The notes under the pieces are model-generated. The model had not been told where the DNA came from and did no database searches. It saw only the letters and a list, made by a program, of their open reading frames with translations. The position numbers were made by a program, and so were the translations under genes. DNA of 64,000 nt from Cupriavidus oxalaticus. Its GTDB lineage: Bacteria > Pseudomonadota > Gammaproteobacteria > Burkholderiales > Burkholderiaceae. This document shows, piece by piece, positions 43,798 through 47,298 of this stretch. Within the stretch, counting starts at the first letter, position 1. Each line of letters begins with the position of its first letter. Location: positions 2,346,413 to 2,410,412 of the forward strand of contig NZ_CP038634.1 in assembly GCF_004768545.1 (NCBI RefSeq), in the 5' to 3' direction.

Positions 43798-43917
43798 GGT
43801 CGGGTCCGTGTTATTTCAGGCTAGCAGGCTACGATGAACATGTTAAGAAATGTCCATCCGGGCGGACGGATCTCTGCCCCATGAGCCGTCCTATCGCGCC
43901 GATAGGAAAATTTTGCC
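43798..43917. promoter_or_regulatory. Inverted repeat upstream of cassette 1 promoter
   Basis: In the 347-base gap before the first repeat-protein gene, CCTATCG (43890-43896) and CGATAGG (43900-43906) form a 7-base dyad with a 3-base gap, directly upstream of the -35 element. It could bind an activator. The rest of this stretch shows nothing else. Confidence 0.35.
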
Positions 43918-43946
43918 TTGACTATCTACCTAGTAGTAGATAGCAT
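43918..43946 (+). promoter_or_regulatory. Cassette 1 promoter with embedded TetR-type operator O1
   Basis: TTGACT (-35, 43918-43923) and TAGCAT (-10, 43941-43946) are 17 bases apart. The spacer is almost filled by CTATCTAC-N6-GTAGATAG (43922-43943), perfect 8-base arms. The same element at the same position precedes cassette 2 (45634-45662). It is the expected binding site for the TetR regulators of this locus. Confidence 0.75.
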
Positions 43947-43953
43947 TCTCTCC

Positions 43954-44038
43954 ATGGAACCGCTGCACCGCCAGCAGCAAAGCAGGAAGGGCGGATAAGT
44001 GGCGATCCCATCGCAATACCGCTATGCGGTCTTTTTTT
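43954..44038 (+). ncRNA. Cassette 1 leader transcript with terminator
   Basis: A transcript from the upstream promoter would begin at about 43953. It carries a stem GCGAT-CCC-ATCGC (44002-44014) and a second, ACCGC-TAT-GCGGT (44018-44030), followed by CTTTTTTT (44031-44038), an intrinsic terminator located before the repeat-protein gene. An ATG sits at the predicted first base and opens a 14-codon frame (43954-43998), so the RNA may be leaderless. Cassette 2 has the same arrangement. The RNA may be an attenuator or a small RNA. Confidence 0.5.
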
Positions 44039-44052
44039 AGCGCCGTCCATCT

Positions 44053-44066
44053 ATCTACTAGTAGAT
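44053..44066 (+). promoter_or_regulatory. Second operator O2 of cassette 1
   Basis: ATCTACTAGTAGAT is a perfect palindrome just after the leader terminator, with the same half-sites as O1 but a shorter centre. Its centre is 127 bases from that of O1 (124 in cassette 2), about twelve helical turns, which would allow repression by looping. No clear -35/-10 pair lies between it and the gene. Confidence 0.65.
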
Positions 44067-44144
44067 GGAAGTGCGAGAAAAGCCCAGCAGGAAGCCACTG
44101 ACACCGATTGACGCGATCCGAAACATCGCCACCAGGAGCCCATC

Positions 44145-44621
44145 ATGACCAAGTTCGCCAAGACCCTGATCACCGCCGCCACCCTTGCCGCCGCCTTCGC
44201 TGGTGGCGCCGCCCACGCCGCCGGCGTGCAGGACAGCAGCTTCGCCGGTGACAAGTACGGTTACCAGTTCCGCGTCGGCAAGACCGATGCCTTCACCGAC
44301 GGTGCCCGCACCGGCAAGTTCGATCCGTTCACCGAAGGCGCGCGTGCCGGCAAGTTCGACCCGTACACCGATGGCCGTGCAGGCAAGGCTGATCCGTACA
44401 CCGACGGTGCTCGCACTGTCAGCTACCGCAGCGGCCAGTTCGACCCGTTCACCGAAGGTGCACGCGTCGGCAAGTCCGACCCCTACACCGACGGCTTCCG
44501 TACCGTAGCCGGGCTGGACCGCAGCGGTGTGTCGTCCGAGCCGTCGCGCAGCTTCGACCCGTACACCGACGGTGCGCGCGTGGGCAAGGCCGACCCGTAC
44601 ACCGACGGCGCGCTCGCCTGA
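44145..44621 (+). CDS. Secreted DPYTDGAR-repeat protein (cassette 1)
   Basis: A 158-residue secreted protein. A signal peptide (1-25, ending GGAAHA) is followed by GVQDSSFAGDKYGYQFRVGK and eight copies of a short motif, D-P-(Y/F)-T-(D/E)-G-A-R, spaced about 10-25 residues apart and joined by GK(A/F/S). The motif resembles the D-x-x-x-D-G part of calcium-binding loops but lacks the middle ligand. The mature protein has no Cys and is probably periplasmic or exported. I do not recognise a named family. CCAGGAGCCCATC precedes the ATG. Its 5' UTR, signal peptide and first repeats are nearly identical in DNA to the cassette 2 gene. It is followed by a membrane peptide and a TetR gene. Confidence 0.8.
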   Translation: MTKFAKTLITAATLAAAFAGGAAHAAGVQDSSFAGDKYGYQFRVGKTDAFTDGARTGKFDPFTEGARAGKFDPYTDGRAGKADPYTDGARTVSYRSGQFDPFTEGARVGKSDPYTDGFRTVAGLDRSGVSSEPSRSFDPYTDGARVGKADPYTDGALA

Positions 44622-44626
44622 TCCCT

Positions 44627-44681
44627 GCCGGCCACCGGCCGGCGGCTTGACCACCTTTACGGCGGCGGCCAGCAAGGCCGC
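44627..44681 (+). other. Intercistronic GC hairpins, cassette 1
   Basis: GCCGGCC-ACC-GGCCGGC (44627-44643) and GCGGCC-N5-GGCCGC (44665-44681) are two stems between the repeat-protein stop and the peptide start. Two equivalent stems of different sequence occur at the same place in cassette 2. They may slow decay of the repeat-protein message or reduce read-through into the peptide. Confidence 0.5.
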
Positions 44682-44699
44682 TGCCCGATGGAGTCCATC

Positions 44700-44801
44700 A
44701 TGAGTTTGCGTGACAGCATCCTGCTGCTTGGCGGATGGCTGGTGCTCTGCGTGACGAGTGGCTCGATGATCACCTTCGCCGCGCAGGTCCTGCCTGGCTA
44801 A
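44700..44801 (+). CDS. 33-residue single-helix membrane peptide (cassette 1)
   Basis: A 33-codon gene with TGGAGTCCATC before its ATG. It encodes a short charged start (MSLRDS) and one membrane helix with the pattern LGGW-x2-LC-x2-SGS-x-ITF, ending in LPG. Cassette 2 has a 33-residue paralogue that keeps LGGW, LC, SGS, IT and LP while most codons differ, good evidence of selection on the protein. It may assist export or sense the membrane; nothing links it to a known family. Confidence 0.75.
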   Translation: MSLRDSILLLGGWLVLCVTSGSMITFAAQVLPG

Positions 44802-44814
44802 AACCGTAAAGCCG

Positions 44815-44853
44815 ATGCCTCGGCGCTAGGGGATTACCCGGGCGCCGGGGCAT
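44815..44853 (+). terminator. Terminator between cassette 1 peptide and TetR genes
   Basis: ATGCC-T-CGGCGC (44815-44826) pairs with GCGCCG-G-GGCAT (44842-44853), a long GC-rich stem with a 15-base loop followed by TTT. It should end the repeat-protein/peptide message and so separate the TetR gene, which has its own promoter. Confidence 0.55.
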
Positions 44854-44859
44854 TTCAGC

Positions 44860-44888
44860 TTGAGCGCCTATCTTCGCGTAGATACACT
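44860..44888 (+). promoter_or_regulatory. TetR-1 promoter with operator, AUG at the start site
   Basis: TTGAGC (44860-44865) and TACACT (44883-44888) are 17 bases apart. Between them lies TATCT-N6-AGATA (44869-44884), 13 of 16 bases identical to the cassette 2 O2 palindrome. The tetR start codon follows the -10 by only 6 bases with no ribosome site, so the mRNA is probably leaderless and autorepressed. Confidence 0.6.
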
Positions 44889-44894
44889 GCCTTT

Positions 44895-45461
44895 ATGAAA
44901 ACGCAATCCGTACGCGAGCAACTGCTCGAGCACACCCTGGTCCTGATCCGCCGCCGCGGCTTCAACGGCTTCAGCTATCGCGACCTGGCCGAGCTGGTGG
45001 GTGTGAAGACTTCCAGCATCCACTATTACTTCCCGACCAAGGACGACCTCGTCCTCGAGGCGGTGAAGGAATACAGCGCCCGCCTCAGCGAGCACCTGCG
45101 CGCCATCGACACGAAGCTGCCGGTCACCGAGCAGGCCGCGATCTACCTGGCGCCGTTCCGCAACAGCTGCGGCTCCGACCAGATCTGCCTGTGCGGCATG
45201 CTGTCGACCGAAACCCTGTGCCTGCCCGAATCCGTGCACCAGCTGCTGCAGGGCTTCTACCTGATGCACGAGAAATGGCTGACGGGACTGCTGGAGCGTG
45301 CCCAGCCGCTGCGCAGCACGCCATTCCCCGTGCCGCCGCCACGGCTGGCGCAGGTGGTGTTCGGTTCGCTGCAAAGTGGCCTGATCGCAGCCCGGTTGTT
45401 CGGCACGTCCGACCGCGTCGAGGCAGCGGCCGATACGCTGATGGCAGCCGTGGCTGGCTAA
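44895..45461 (+). CDS. TetR/AcrR family regulator of cassette 1
   Basis: A 188-residue TetR regulator. The HTH (about 5-55) reads LVLIRRRGFNGFSYRDLAEL and VGVKTSSIHYYFPTKDDLV. The ligand domain contains four closely placed Cys (SCGSDQICLCGMLSTETLCL, about residues 90-110), a pattern that could sense electrophiles, oxidants or a metal. Its DNA-binding half is almost identical to that of the cassette 2 regulator, so both should bind the ATCTAC/GTAGAT operators. It has its own promoter and operator and probably a leaderless message, unlike cassette 2 where the TetR gene has a ribosome site and lies in the operon. Confidence 0.92.
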   Translation: MKTQSVREQLLEHTLVLIRRRGFNGFSYRDLAELVGVKTSSIHYYFPTKDDLVLEAVKEYSARLSEHLRAIDTKLPVTEQAAIYLAPFRNSCGSDQICLCGMLSTETLCLPESVHQLLQGFYLMHEKWLTGLLERAQPLRSTPFPVPPPRLAQVVFGSLQSGLIAARLFGTSDRVEAAADTLMAAVAG

Positions 45462-45504
45462 GGGTTAGCGTTCCGATCTATCGCGCTGTCAGTGGCGCGT
45501 CCAG

Positions 45505-45568
45505 AGCCGTCGGGTGGCGAAAGCTGCGCGGCGGCTTTTTTCATTGGCGGCTCGCGTCCGCTTTTTTT
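45505..45568 (+). terminator. Tandem terminators between the two cassettes
   Basis: AGCCG (45505-45509) with CGGCT (45532-45536) followed by six Ts, then GCGG (45547-45550) with CCGC (45558-45561) followed by seven Ts (45562-45568). Both act on the plus strand and insulate cassette 2 from transcription of the first TetR gene. The 395-base gap 45462-45856 otherwise contains only the cassette 2 control region. Confidence 0.6.
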
Positions 45569-45633
45569 CTCGCTATATTCTTTTGGAATCAAAGACTTAC
45601 TATCGGCTATCAGTCCCATAGAAATATTCTTCC

Positions 45634-45662
45634 TTGACTATCTACCTAGTAGTAGATAGTAT
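45634..45662 (+). promoter_or_regulatory. Cassette 2 promoter with embedded operator O1
   Basis: TTGACT (45634-45639) and TAGTAT (45657-45662), 17 bases apart, enclose CTATCTAC-N6-GTAGATAG (45638-45659). The -35, spacer and operator are identical to those of cassette 1, while the sequence around them has diverged, which supports functional conservation. Confidence 0.78.
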
Positions 45663-45669
45663 TTGACTC

Positions 45670-45750
45670 ATGGAAGCGCCGCAGCGCCAGCAGCAACGAA
45701 GAGCAGGGCCCAGCGACGATCCCATGCATGACCGAAGGCGGTCATTTTTT
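45670..45750 (+). ncRNA. Cassette 2 leader transcript with terminator
   Basis: The predicted transcript starts at about 45669 and ends at a terminator, ATGACCG (45728-45734) with CGGTCAT (45739-45745) and a run of Ts to 45750. As in cassette 1 an ATG lies at the start site and opens a short frame that begins ME and contains RQQQ, but here it runs 30 codons through the terminator to 45762. The frame length is not conserved, so the RNA itself may be the functional part. Confidence 0.5.
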
Positions 45751-45764
45751 CAGGGCAGGTGATC

Positions 45765-45780
45765 TATCTACTAGTAGATA
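45765..45780 (+). promoter_or_regulatory. Second operator O2 of cassette 2
   Basis: TATCTACTAGTAGATA is a perfect 16-base palindrome, 14 of whose bases match the cassette 1 O2. It lies just after the leader terminator and 76 bases before the repeat-protein gene. Confidence 0.7.
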
Positions 45781-45856
45781 ACTACCCCAAAAAAAGCACC
45801 GCGAAGCCACTGACACCGATTGACGCGATCCGAAACATCGCCCCCTGGAGCCCATC

Positions 45857-46489
45857 ATGACCAAGTTCGCCAAGACCTTCATCACCGCCGCCACCCTTGC
45901 TGCCGCCTTCGCTGGTGGCGCCGCCCACGCCGCTGGCGTGCAGGACAGCAGCTTCGCCGGTGACAAGTACGGTTACCAGTTCCGCGTTGGCAAGACCGAT
46001 GCCTTCACCGACGGTGCCCGCACCGGCAACTTCGATCCGTTCACCGAAGGCGCACGCGTCGGCAAGGCTGATCCGTACACCGACGGTGCCCGCATCGTCG
46101 CCGGCCTGGATCGCAGTGGCGTCTCGGCTTCGCCGGCGCGCAGCGGCCAGTTCGACCCGTTCACCGAAGGTGCGCGCGTTGGCAAGGCTGATCCGTACAC
46201 CGACGGTGCCCGCATCGTCGCCGGCCTGGATCGCAGCGGCGTCTCGGCTTCGCCGGCACGCAGCGGCCAGTTCGACCCGTTCACCGAAGGCGCACGCGTC
46301 GGCAAGGCTGATCCGTACACCGACGGTGCCCGCATCGTCGCCGGACTGGACCGCAGCGGCGTCTCGGCCTCGCCGGCACGCAGCGCCGACCCGTACACCG
46401 ATGGCGCACGTGTTGGCAAGGCTGACCCCTACACCGACGGTGCACGTGTCGGCAAGGCTGACCCCTACACCGACGGTGCAATCGCCTGA
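45857..46489 (+). CDS. Secreted DPYTDGAR-repeat protein (cassette 2)
   Basis: A 210-residue secreted paralogue of the cassette 1 protein. The signal peptide and first 60 residues are nearly identical. Ten copies of the D-P-(Y/F)-T-(D/E)-G motif follow, organised mostly as a 40-residue unit (FDPFTEGARVGKADPYTDGA, then RIVAGLDRSGVSASPARSGQ) that occurs three times. The protein is longer than its cassette 1 relative because this unit has been amplified. CTGGAGCCCATC precedes the ATG. Probably periplasmic or extracellular; the function is unknown. The acidic repeats could bind a cation, which is speculation. Confidence 0.8.
   Translation: MTKFAKTFITAATLAAAFAGGAAHAAGVQDSSFAGDKYGYQFRVGKTDAFTDGARTGNFDPFTEGARVGKADPYTDGARIVAGLDRSGVSASPARSGQFDPFTEGARVGKADPYTDGARIVAGLDRSGVSASPARSGQFDPFTEGARVGKADPYTDGARIVAGLDRSGVSASPARSADPYTDGARVGKADPYTDGARVGKADPYTDGAIA
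46031..46390 (+). repeat. Three 120-bp coding repeats in the cassette 2 protein gene
   Basis: Units begin at 46031, 46151 and 46271 with TTCGA(T/C)CCGTTCACCGAAG and are exactly 120 bases long, in frame, with only a few third-position differences. This indicates recent tandem amplification. The cassette 1 gene has the building blocks but not this array. Confidence 0.85.
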
Positions 46490-46507
46490 GGCAAGCGTCT
46501 GGAAAAC

Positions 46508-46562
46508 GGCCGGCAAGTTGCCGGCCCCCTGTAACCACCGGGCTGCCAGCGAGCAGCCCGGT
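46508..46562 (+). other. Intercistronic GC hairpins, cassette 2
   Basis: GGCCGGC-N5-GCCGGCC (46508-46526) and ACCGGGCTG-N8-CAGCCCGGT (46537-46562) are two stable stems between the repeat-protein stop and the peptide start. They match the two stems of cassette 1 in position though not in sequence. Confidence 0.55.
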
Positions 46563-46576
46563 TCATGGAGTCGATC

Positions 46577-46678
46577 ATGCGTTGGCTTGACACTGCGCTG
46601 ATCCTGGGCGGATGGGTAGGGCTTTGCCTGGCAAGCGGGTCCCTCATCACGCTCGTCGCACGCGCGCTGCCGGCCTGA
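46577..46678 (+). CDS. 33-residue single-helix membrane peptide (cassette 2)
   Basis: A 33-codon gene, TGGAGTCGATC before the ATG, encoding MRWLDT and one membrane helix with LGGW-x2-LC-x2-SGS-x-IT and a terminal LPA. It is the paralogue of the peptide at 44700-44801, of identical length. The TetR gene starts 33 bases further on with a good ribosome site, so in this cassette all three genes may share one message. Confidence 0.75.
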   Translation: MRWLDTALILGGWVGLCLASGSLITLVARALPA

Positions 46679-46710
46679 GCCGCGCGGTGCAGAACGAAGG
46701 AGTTGGAACG

Positions 46711-47298
46711 ATGAAAACCCGGTCCGTACGTGAAGAACTGGTCGAACATGCACTGGTGCTGATCCGCCGTCGGGGGTTCAACGGGTTCAGCTACCGCGAC
46801 CTGGCGGAACTGGTCGGGGTCAAGACCTCGAGCATCCACTATTACTTTCCGACCAAAGAAGACCTGGTGCTGGAAGCGGTGCGCGAATACAGCGCACGCA
46901 AGCAGGCACGGCTGGCGGCCATCGACAGCAGCCTGCCGCCGGCCGAGCAGGCGCGCCAATACCTGGCTCCCCTGTGCGCCGGCGCCGGCACCGACGAAGC
47001 GTGCCTGGTCGGCATGCTGGCGGCGGATGTGCTGATGCTGCCGGAGTCCGTGCGCAGCGCGATGCGCGACTTTGTCCGCCTCAACGAGCAATGGCTTGCG
47101 CGGCTGTTCGAGCGCGCGGCGGCGCAGCGGCAGGCGCCTTACCCGGCGTCGCCCCAACAACTGGCGGAGATTGCGTTCGGCGCGCTGCAAAACGGCCTGA
47201 TCAGTGCGCGGCTGTTCGGCACCACCGACCGGCTCGACGCCGCCGCGGGGATGCTGACCGGCCTGATGCGGGCGGAGCGGGCGCTAGCCGTTGCCTGA
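46711..47298 (+). CDS. TetR/AcrR family regulator of cassette 2
   Basis: A 195-residue TetR regulator. Its first 65 residues (SVREELVEHALVLIRRRGFN and onward) match those of the cassette 1 regulator with only a few conservative changes, and the recognition helix region TSSIHYYFPTK is identical. The ligand domain has diverged: two of the four Cys are kept near CAGAGTDEACLVGML. So the two proteins should bind the same operators while sensing related but different signals. AAGGAG precedes the ATG. The 3' end overlaps the convergent hydrolase gene by 15 bases. Confidence 0.92.
   Translation: MKTRSVREELVEHALVLIRRRGFNGFSYRDLAELVGVKTSSIHYYFPTKEDLVLEAVREYSARKQARLAAIDSSLPPAEQARQYLAPLCAGAGTDEACLVGMLAADVLMLPESVRSAMRDFVRLNEQWLARLFERAAAQRQAPYPASPQQLAEIAFGALQNGLISARLFGTTDRLDAAAGMLTGLMRAERALAVA

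Follow-up and report, generated by a model that had tools for sequence, protein, structure and literature searches.

A window of 64,000 nucleotides (nt) from Cupriavidus oxalaticus (contig NZ_CP038634.1, positions 2,346,413 to 2,410,412 of the forward strand) contains two tandem cassettes, cassette 1 (43918-45461) and cassette 2 (45634-47298). As originally predicted, the same order of genes and control elements occurs twice in a row over 43918-47298: a promoter with operator O1, a leader, operator O2, a gene for a predicted secreted repeat protein (REP), a 33-codon peptide gene and a gene for a regulator of the TetR family. The most unusual feature of the cassettes is a leader terminator with O2 locked to it at constant spacing; O2 is tied to this terminator and not to O1. 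Here we present the evidence for this arrangement and a reading to which we give an even chance of being right, namely that each cassette is a TetR-controlled de-repression unit with a promoter block at O1 and an operator-locked terminator at O2. Held a little more tentatively is the termination step itself, in which TetR bound about 10 bp beyond a weak intrinsic terminator would act as a ligand-switchable termination factor, one protein would control both initiation and termination, and the geometry would have been kept while the output was exchanged (ohr, DUF4148 or CopQ-like genes). The features are as follows.

43918..43946, + strand: promoter of cassette 1 (promoter scan and sequence), TTGACT-17-TAGCAT, the spacer filled by O1, CTATCTACCTAGTAGTAGATAG
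43954..44038, + strand: leader 1, beginning at an ATG (probable transcript start) 7 nt downstream of the -10 and ending with the T-run; the length of its upstream open reading frame (uORF) is not conserved
44018..44038, + strand: putative leader terminator 1, ACCGC-TAT-GCGGT, C, T7
44049..44066, + strand: operator O2 (cassette 1), whose right arm lies 30 nt downstream of the first T in the T-run
44145..44621, + strand: REP1, predicted secreted CopQ-like repeat protein, 158 amino acids (aa)
44700..44801, + strand: 33-residue hydrophobic peptide 1, MSLRDSILLLGGWLVLCVTSGSMITFAAQVLPG
44860..44888, + strand: candidate TetR1 promoter, TTGAGC-17-TACACT, recognized by eye but not picked up by the promoter scan; it carries a third operator, and the start codon follows 6 nt behind the -10
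44895..45461, + strand: TetR1, 188 aa, predicted repressor of the AltR/NemR type, with Cys98 and Cys100 (CLC)
45634..45662, + strand: promoter of cassette 2 (promoter scan and sequence), TTGACT-17-TAGTAT, with operator O1
45670..45750, + strand: leader 2, beginning at an ATG 7 nt downstream of the -10 and ending with the T-run
45730..45750, + strand: putative leader terminator 2, GACCG-AAGG-CGGTC, A, T6
45762..45779, + strand: operator O2 (cassette 2), whose right arm lies 30 nt downstream of the first T
45857..46489, + strand: REP2, predicted secreted CopQ-like repeat protein, 210 aa
46577..46678, + strand: 33-residue hydrophobic peptide 2, MRWLDTALILGGWVGLCLASGSLITLVARALPA
46711..47298, + strand: TetR2, 195 aa, same predicted type as TetR1, with CLV instead of CLC

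In both leaders a G+C-rich hairpin stands directly before a T-run between O1 and O2, which is the form of an intrinsic terminator. The original prediction had described O1, leader and O2 as an operator pair; both operators are present, but the terminator between them had been overlooked. Terminator-like sites number seven in the 3.6-kb region, against a mean of 2.3 after shuffling. The arrangement was followed through 52 leaders, two from the window and 50 from fetched Cupriavidus loci (the rows dropped were L098 and L099, cut off upstream, L068, in which the repeat protein is absent by rule, and L065, whose -35 TTGCGT fails the promoter pattern). A hairpin of at least 4 bp precedes the T-run in 50 of these leaders and one of at least 5 bp in 40, compared with 18% and 9% of shuffled stretches; 14 different hairpin 5' arms occur, some of them register variants of one another. 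The first T of the T-run lies 29-31 nt from the right arm of O2 in all 52, whereas the O1-O2 distance ranges over 88-146 and the distance from O2 to the start codon over 37-117. Relative to the T-run end, the position of O2 has a standard deviation of 0.6, compared with 8 for the O1-O2 distance and 12 for the O2-start distance. In the window cassettes, 10-11 bases separate the end of the T-run from O2.

The strongest evidence for a terminator-operator module is a genome-wide spacing test. The pattern T5-N11-15-operator was found in 107 of 398 Burkholderiaceae genomes (57/57 Cupriavidus and 50/341 others, six genera in all), whereas the control with the spacing increased by 20 nt occurred in 0/398 genomes and the reversed control gave 0 in every row. 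Regarding the T5-runs situated 12-72 nt upstream of 113 operator-strand instances, 13 of the 28 outside Cupriavidus lie at 28-31 nt, seven of them in Collimonas; there, a DUF4148 secreted-protein gene is present in 7/7 loci and the T-run is 31 nt from the operator in 7/7. Five further CopQ-like genes of other Cupriavidus genomes, chosen among the genome-wide matches listed for lying away from TetR matches, also have O1, a T-run and O2 at 30-31 nt. Outside Cupriavidus, the loci covered were 30 spacing-pattern loci, all from genus g11 and all before ohr, with O1 upstream in 26 of 31 rows and a hairpin in 28 of 31. This genus is taken for Burkholderia because one of its loci (L207) matches a B. 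dolosa gene fully over ohr. Stems measure 4-6 bp in Cupriavidus and usually 7-9 bp in g11.

Outside Cupriavidus, the output behind related regulators is not always a repeat protein: a gene for the Ohr peroxiredoxin stands beside a related TetR in 10 of the 22 loci L175-L196 (the ohr of L175 scores 177 bits with TIGR03561, cut-off 88.85), and other neighbours, named by eye and not by family search, are alpha/beta hydrolases, an aldehyde dehydrogenase, an NADP-type reductase and rubrerythrin. The operator pattern found nothing in L187, L189, L193 and L196. At L187 and L189, where the TetR relatives adjoin a rubrerythrin-like gene (by eye), the operator may differ.

The two O1 sites coincide with the only sigma70-like promoters in 3.6 kb (two found; shuffled mean 0.7, standard deviation 0.8), and O1 fills the 17-nt spacer between -35 and -10 in both cassettes. 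TTG is present at the -35 in 52/52 leaders, a triplet that the leader-finding pattern itself requires. O2 is an identical 18-mer, ATCTATCTACTAGTAGAT, in both cassettes; it lies 3' of the sole promoter-like site of its cassette and inside the transcribed region, that is, where a roadblock would be placed. A second promoter at O2 was considered and rejected, as the 12 commonest -35 hexamers there lack TTG and no -10 is conserved in the 52 leaders. The predicted operators are not chance occurrences: the 8.0 Mb genome has the mismatch-free form ATCTA-N8-TAGAT only five times, four in the cassette region and one before a dispersed repeat-protein paralogue at C2:1682921. This paralogue, a third CopQ-like gene of the same genome (L017, G000:C2:1681700-1683700), has a T8 run and an operator (C2:1682921-1682938) with 30 nt from the first T to the right arm, and no O1 was found upstream of them; the locus offers a natural test of the terminator-operator unit alone.

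A third operator, absent from the original prediction, is located in TetR1's own promoter (44860-44888), and TetR1 probably represses that promoter through it. Of the window pair only TetR1 is preceded by such a related operator, the exact altR-box core being O1, upstream of the repeat-protein gene; 27 of 56 TetR genes have an operator within 60 nt of the start. Since none was found within 60 nt upstream of TetR2, this gene is probably expressed from the O1 transcript. The tetR start codons follow the -10 by 6-7 nt (44889-44895; L175:3494-3503), so that these genes probably give rise to leaderless messages; in passages of PMC4603805, regulators are described as enriched among the leaderless transcripts of B. 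cenocepacia.

Both regulators score as members of the TetR family (PF00440, 41.7 and 43.2 bits, cut-off 24), and the best C-terminal match in Pfam is TetR_C_13, above the cut-off in TetR2 only. TetR1 and TetR2 are 62% identical. Their DNA-binding halves are nearly the same (54/60 for residues 1-60), whereas the sensor halves have diverged (62/128 for residues 61-188, ungapped), in agreement with the original prediction. Residues 35-46 are nearly invariant among the TetRs compared and identical between the two proteins; with the operators the same as well, both TetRs probably bind each other's sites, and cross-regulation is plausible. The model of TetR1 consists of helices only (predicted local distance difference test, pLDDT, 91.7), and NemR (4yze) is its eighth fold match, with a template modelling (TM) score of about 0.8. 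Cys98 is the only invariant cysteine (56/56 TetRs) and aligns with the cysteine in the CLTVKL motif of NemR, which we take to be Cys106, its sensor. A cysteine at the position of AltR Cys100 is present in TetR1, absent from TetR2 and found in 19/56 overall; CLC occurs in TetR1 and three aligned Burkholderiales relatives. On sequence grounds, TetR1 and TetR2 are predicted relatives of AltR and NemR.

NemR of Escherichia coli shares with TetR1 the fold and the position of the sensor cysteine but only about 20% identity, and the genes under its control are nemA and gloA instead of one for a secreted repeat protein. Another TetR repressor is AltR, from the alt cluster of Pantoea ananatis; its operator core, ATCTAC-N6-GTAGAT, is shared with O1, and mutation of the altR box, CAATCTAC-N6-GTAGATTG, showed it to be needed for repression in vivo (passages of PMC13178969). 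According to the same passages, AltR is autoregulated, as TetR1 would be from the position of its operator, and answers to thiosulfinates. In the P. ananatis record an OsmC-family gene lies near one altR-type box, as ohr does in Burkholderia. However, AltR (L199:41654-42229) is only 28% identical to TetR1, the target genes differ, the OsmC-side box has a T7 run about 50 nt before its right arm instead of 30, and the altR box itself has no T-run within 60 nt upstream (the last two by eye).

A further close parallel is BCAS0084-0086 of B. cenocepacia J2315, a set of genes for TetR, Ohr and an exported lipase that rises on H2O2 and NaOCl, ohr being induced 1438-fold in quantitative PCR at 15 min, the highest value among the rows seen (PMC2830190). 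A B. cenocepacia record (L197) shows the same gene order, which and not locus tags is the basis for equating the two, together with the same operators and O1-terminator-O2 before ohr. The output differs, being a peroxiredoxin and an esterase. Regarding leader transcripts, the tags BCAS0084-0085 do not occur in the main text of PMC4603805 and PMC5688073. The comparison points to oxidants, hydroperoxides or electrophiles as the likely signal class, which does not fix the signal in Cupriavidus.

Under the proposed mechanism, each cassette would serve to produce a CopQ-like secreted protein upon de-repression. Inside the spacer between -35 and -10, a TetR of the AltR/NemR kind on O1 very probably blocks initiation. 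TetR would also sit on O2, 10-11 bases past the T-run of the short leader terminator. RNA polymerase stalls roughly 14-18 nt before a bound protein, and the left edge of O2 is 17 nt from the first T, which would place the active site at the start of the U-tract. To judge from the fixed geometry, a polymerase that escaped O1 would thus meet TetR at O2 and stall while its active site is within the U-tract or immediately upstream of it, and the stall would give a weak hairpin time for transcript release, a second lock against leakage; the 4-6 bp stems of Cupriavidus fit a terminator that needs help. By analogy with NemR and AltR, from which repression and cysteine-based release are inferred, a thiol-reactive stress signal would modify Cys98, perhaps with Cys100 in TetR1 but not in TetR2, and TetR would leave its sites. 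Polymerase would then start at O1, meet no hold at the U-tract and read into REP, the peptide gene and, in cassette 2, tetR. With a shared DNA-binding surface and different sensor halves, the two TetRs would cover a wider range of signals.

Several observations weigh against this mechanism. The sequences share descent, so that the counts are not independent trials, and most outgroup genomes with TetR lack the spacing pattern. By rule, no hairpin is present in L061 and L077 among the 52 leaders or in 3 of the 31 g11 rows, and the stem is only 3 bp by eye in L230 and L231, two of the five CopQ-like genes away from tetR. One g11 row (L205) is clearly a tetR-side terminator followed by O1, and the matches in L208, L209 and L216 probably also represent the tetR gene's own terminator before O1. 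The 7-9 bp stems of g11 seem to need no help and fit less well, while with the 4-6 bp stems of Cupriavidus termination may be inefficient even when polymerase stalls, and a block at O2 could stop polymerase too early for the hairpin to close. Regarding the sensor, the essential Cys100 of AltR (numbering of the paper, counted by eye) aligns with Cys100 of TetR1 and not with the invariant Cys98, and AltR is described as not responding to N-ethylmaleimide (NEM), diamide or H2O2 (passages of PMC13178969).

It is unlikely, though the likeliest of the alternatives, that O2 is an ordinary auxiliary operator which raises the occupancy of O1 by looping or local concentration, with the terminator incidental. 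Repressor systems often have two operators of identical core separated by about 125 bp, and in the tandem-type loci O1-O2 is close to 124; across clades, however, this distance varies without helical phasing whereas that from terminator to O2 is fixed, the spacing-shifted pattern is absent from the 398 genomes, and L017 has the T-run and operator with no O1 found upstream. DNA looping as the sole reason for O2 was rejected on the varying, unphased O1-O2 spacing.

Still less probable is that the leader acts through RNA, either as an attenuator of the riboswitch, leader-peptide or antiterminator type or by yielding a regulatory small RNA as its terminated product, and that O2 only fine-tunes. 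A terminator inside a leader is the hallmark of attenuation, and an ATG (GTG in one) is found 36 nt after the start of the -35 in 50 of 52 leaders and 35 nt in two. The uORF, however, extends from 6 to more than 60 codons and is not conserved in length, and L234 has no ATG at that place; a leader peptide was rejected for these two reasons. Leaders are 48-106 nt long, and only 8 columns are invariant in a 114-column alignment of 26 of them. A riboswitch or other known RNA was rejected because Rfam gave no match at E up to 1, a test whose scope does not include alternative folds. Improbable to the same degree is that the pair of terminator and operator insulates a stress gene from read-through out of upstream genes, promoter tightness not being its purpose. 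The tetR-side terminator of L205, about 31 nt before O1, would suit such a role, and L208, L209 and L216 look alike; in Cupriavidus, however, a promoter-like site lies upstream of the terminator, so that the pair acts on the gene's own transcript.

The repressor, the operator core and the secreted family are each of a known kind, and the original prediction's statement that no comparable system is described needs correction: the repeat protein is CopQ-like (passages of PMC2864759), and TetR and its operator are of the AltR/NemR kind (passages of PMC13178969). A literature search by titles and abstract openings, in which few subscription journals were covered, found no description of a repressor site that keeps a constant distance from a leader terminator and recurs before different outputs. 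If operator-locked termination is correct, a DNA-bound repressor would serve as a switchable termination factor under a simple spacing rule that is reusable in circuit design. It could also explain the very large induction of TetR-linked ohr in B. cenocepacia, and would provide a candidate regulator and a class of signal for some members of the CopQ family, which has many representatives in Cupriavidus and is poorly characterized in the passages of the literature considered. With regulator, operator and terminator kept and the output gene exchanged, the arrangement would be a clear case of regulatory-module reuse.

REP1 and REP2 match no Pfam family above the cut-off. Their homologues are named copper resistance protein CopQ or hypothetical protein by the source (for example P0028, 50% identity over 91%, E 4.8e-39), and the CopQ likeness refers to these source-given names and these homologues, not to a comparison with CopQ of C. 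metallidurans CH34 itself. Among the best 120 of 189 matches, the organisms are Cupriavidus, a Burkholderiaceae bacterium and a compost metagenome. Described in strain CH34, the CopQ family is characterized by the motif RDXXTDG, signal peptides and metal induction (PMC2864759); CH34 has 21 CopQ homologues (PMC7563307), and a role in silver resistance is reported for PrsQ1/PrsQ2 (PMC7380067). According to passages of these papers, the cassette proteins share with the family of Cupriavidus and Ralstonia a signal peptide, repeated xDxxT[DE]G motifs and many paralogues per genome. They differ in that the strict RDXXTDG (3-4 repeats) was not seen in REP1 and REP2, in which xDxxT[DE]G has another residue before D (by eye); for this reason they are classified as CopQ-like and not as the CopQ prototype. 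Control also differs: metal induction and CopR- or AgrR-type control are discussed in passages of the three papers, and these passages do not mention TetR control with an operator-terminator-operator leader. The CH34 cassettes could not be equated with mmtQ or mmsQ (passages of PMC2864759), the CH34 record being without annotation there.

In the 8.0 Mb genome, the repeat-protein search yielded 32 stretches that match with E up to 0.001. Twenty further dispersed places (L011-L030) each have a CopQ-like repeat open reading frame (ORF), and of these only L017 shows an operator of the cassette type within the stretch read. Without the signal part, REP1 and REP2 are acidic (isoelectric point 5.1-5.2). 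The cassette repeat proteins have no Cys in 52/52 and no internal Met in 51/52, which rules out a metal binder based on Cys and Met; the absence of these two most oxidizable residues would suit a protein made under oxidative or electrophile stress. The AlphaFold model of REP2 has no confident fold (pLDDT 46.7, predicted TM score 0.14).

The originally proposed unit, duplicated and associated with TetR, with a secreted repeat protein and a short hydrophobic peptide as its products, is kept in nearly every Cupriavidus genome examined. Conservation of the gene order in other genomes was one of the two points on which that proposal was to stand or fall, and the order is kept in other Cupriavidus loci: among 40 fetched Cupriavidus TetR loci, all but L099 have operators and all but L068 have a repeat ORF (39 in each case), the ORF being partial in L098 and L099. 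TetR occurs in 59 of 60 Cupriavidus genomes, usually as two copies, which stand in tandem in some and apart in others; among Burkholderiaceae genomes the count is 236 of 398 (12 of 25 genera, including Cupriavidus). Between the window cassettes, the promoter/O1 stretch is the same over 26 bases (43918-43943 and 45634-45659). The 40 identical leader bases claimed before the repeat-protein start are not borne out, as 55 of the last 60 bases match, with differences 11 and 14 bases before the ATG. The supposed divergence of the repeat proteins applies to repeat number and arrangement but not to the first 50 residues, which match at 49. Strong gene conversion between cassettes was considered and rejected: only 9 of 30 comparisons over these 50 residues, made across 15 tandem-type loci, placed the paralogue of the same genome nearer than all orthologues of the same cassette. 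Mean values were 0.89 within and 0.76 between genomes, and the leader shows no homogenization between cassettes (0.77 and 0.77).

A peptide ORF precedes 43 of 56 TetR genes according to a single regular expression; by eye, some of the misses are GTG starts or VGW variants, none is present at L069, L070, L076, L095, L097 and L099, and that of L074 is degenerate. The DNA of peptide 1 (44700-44801; L080-L093) hardly changes from one tandem-type locus to the next, even at synonymous positions (by eye), a possible sign of a second constraint.

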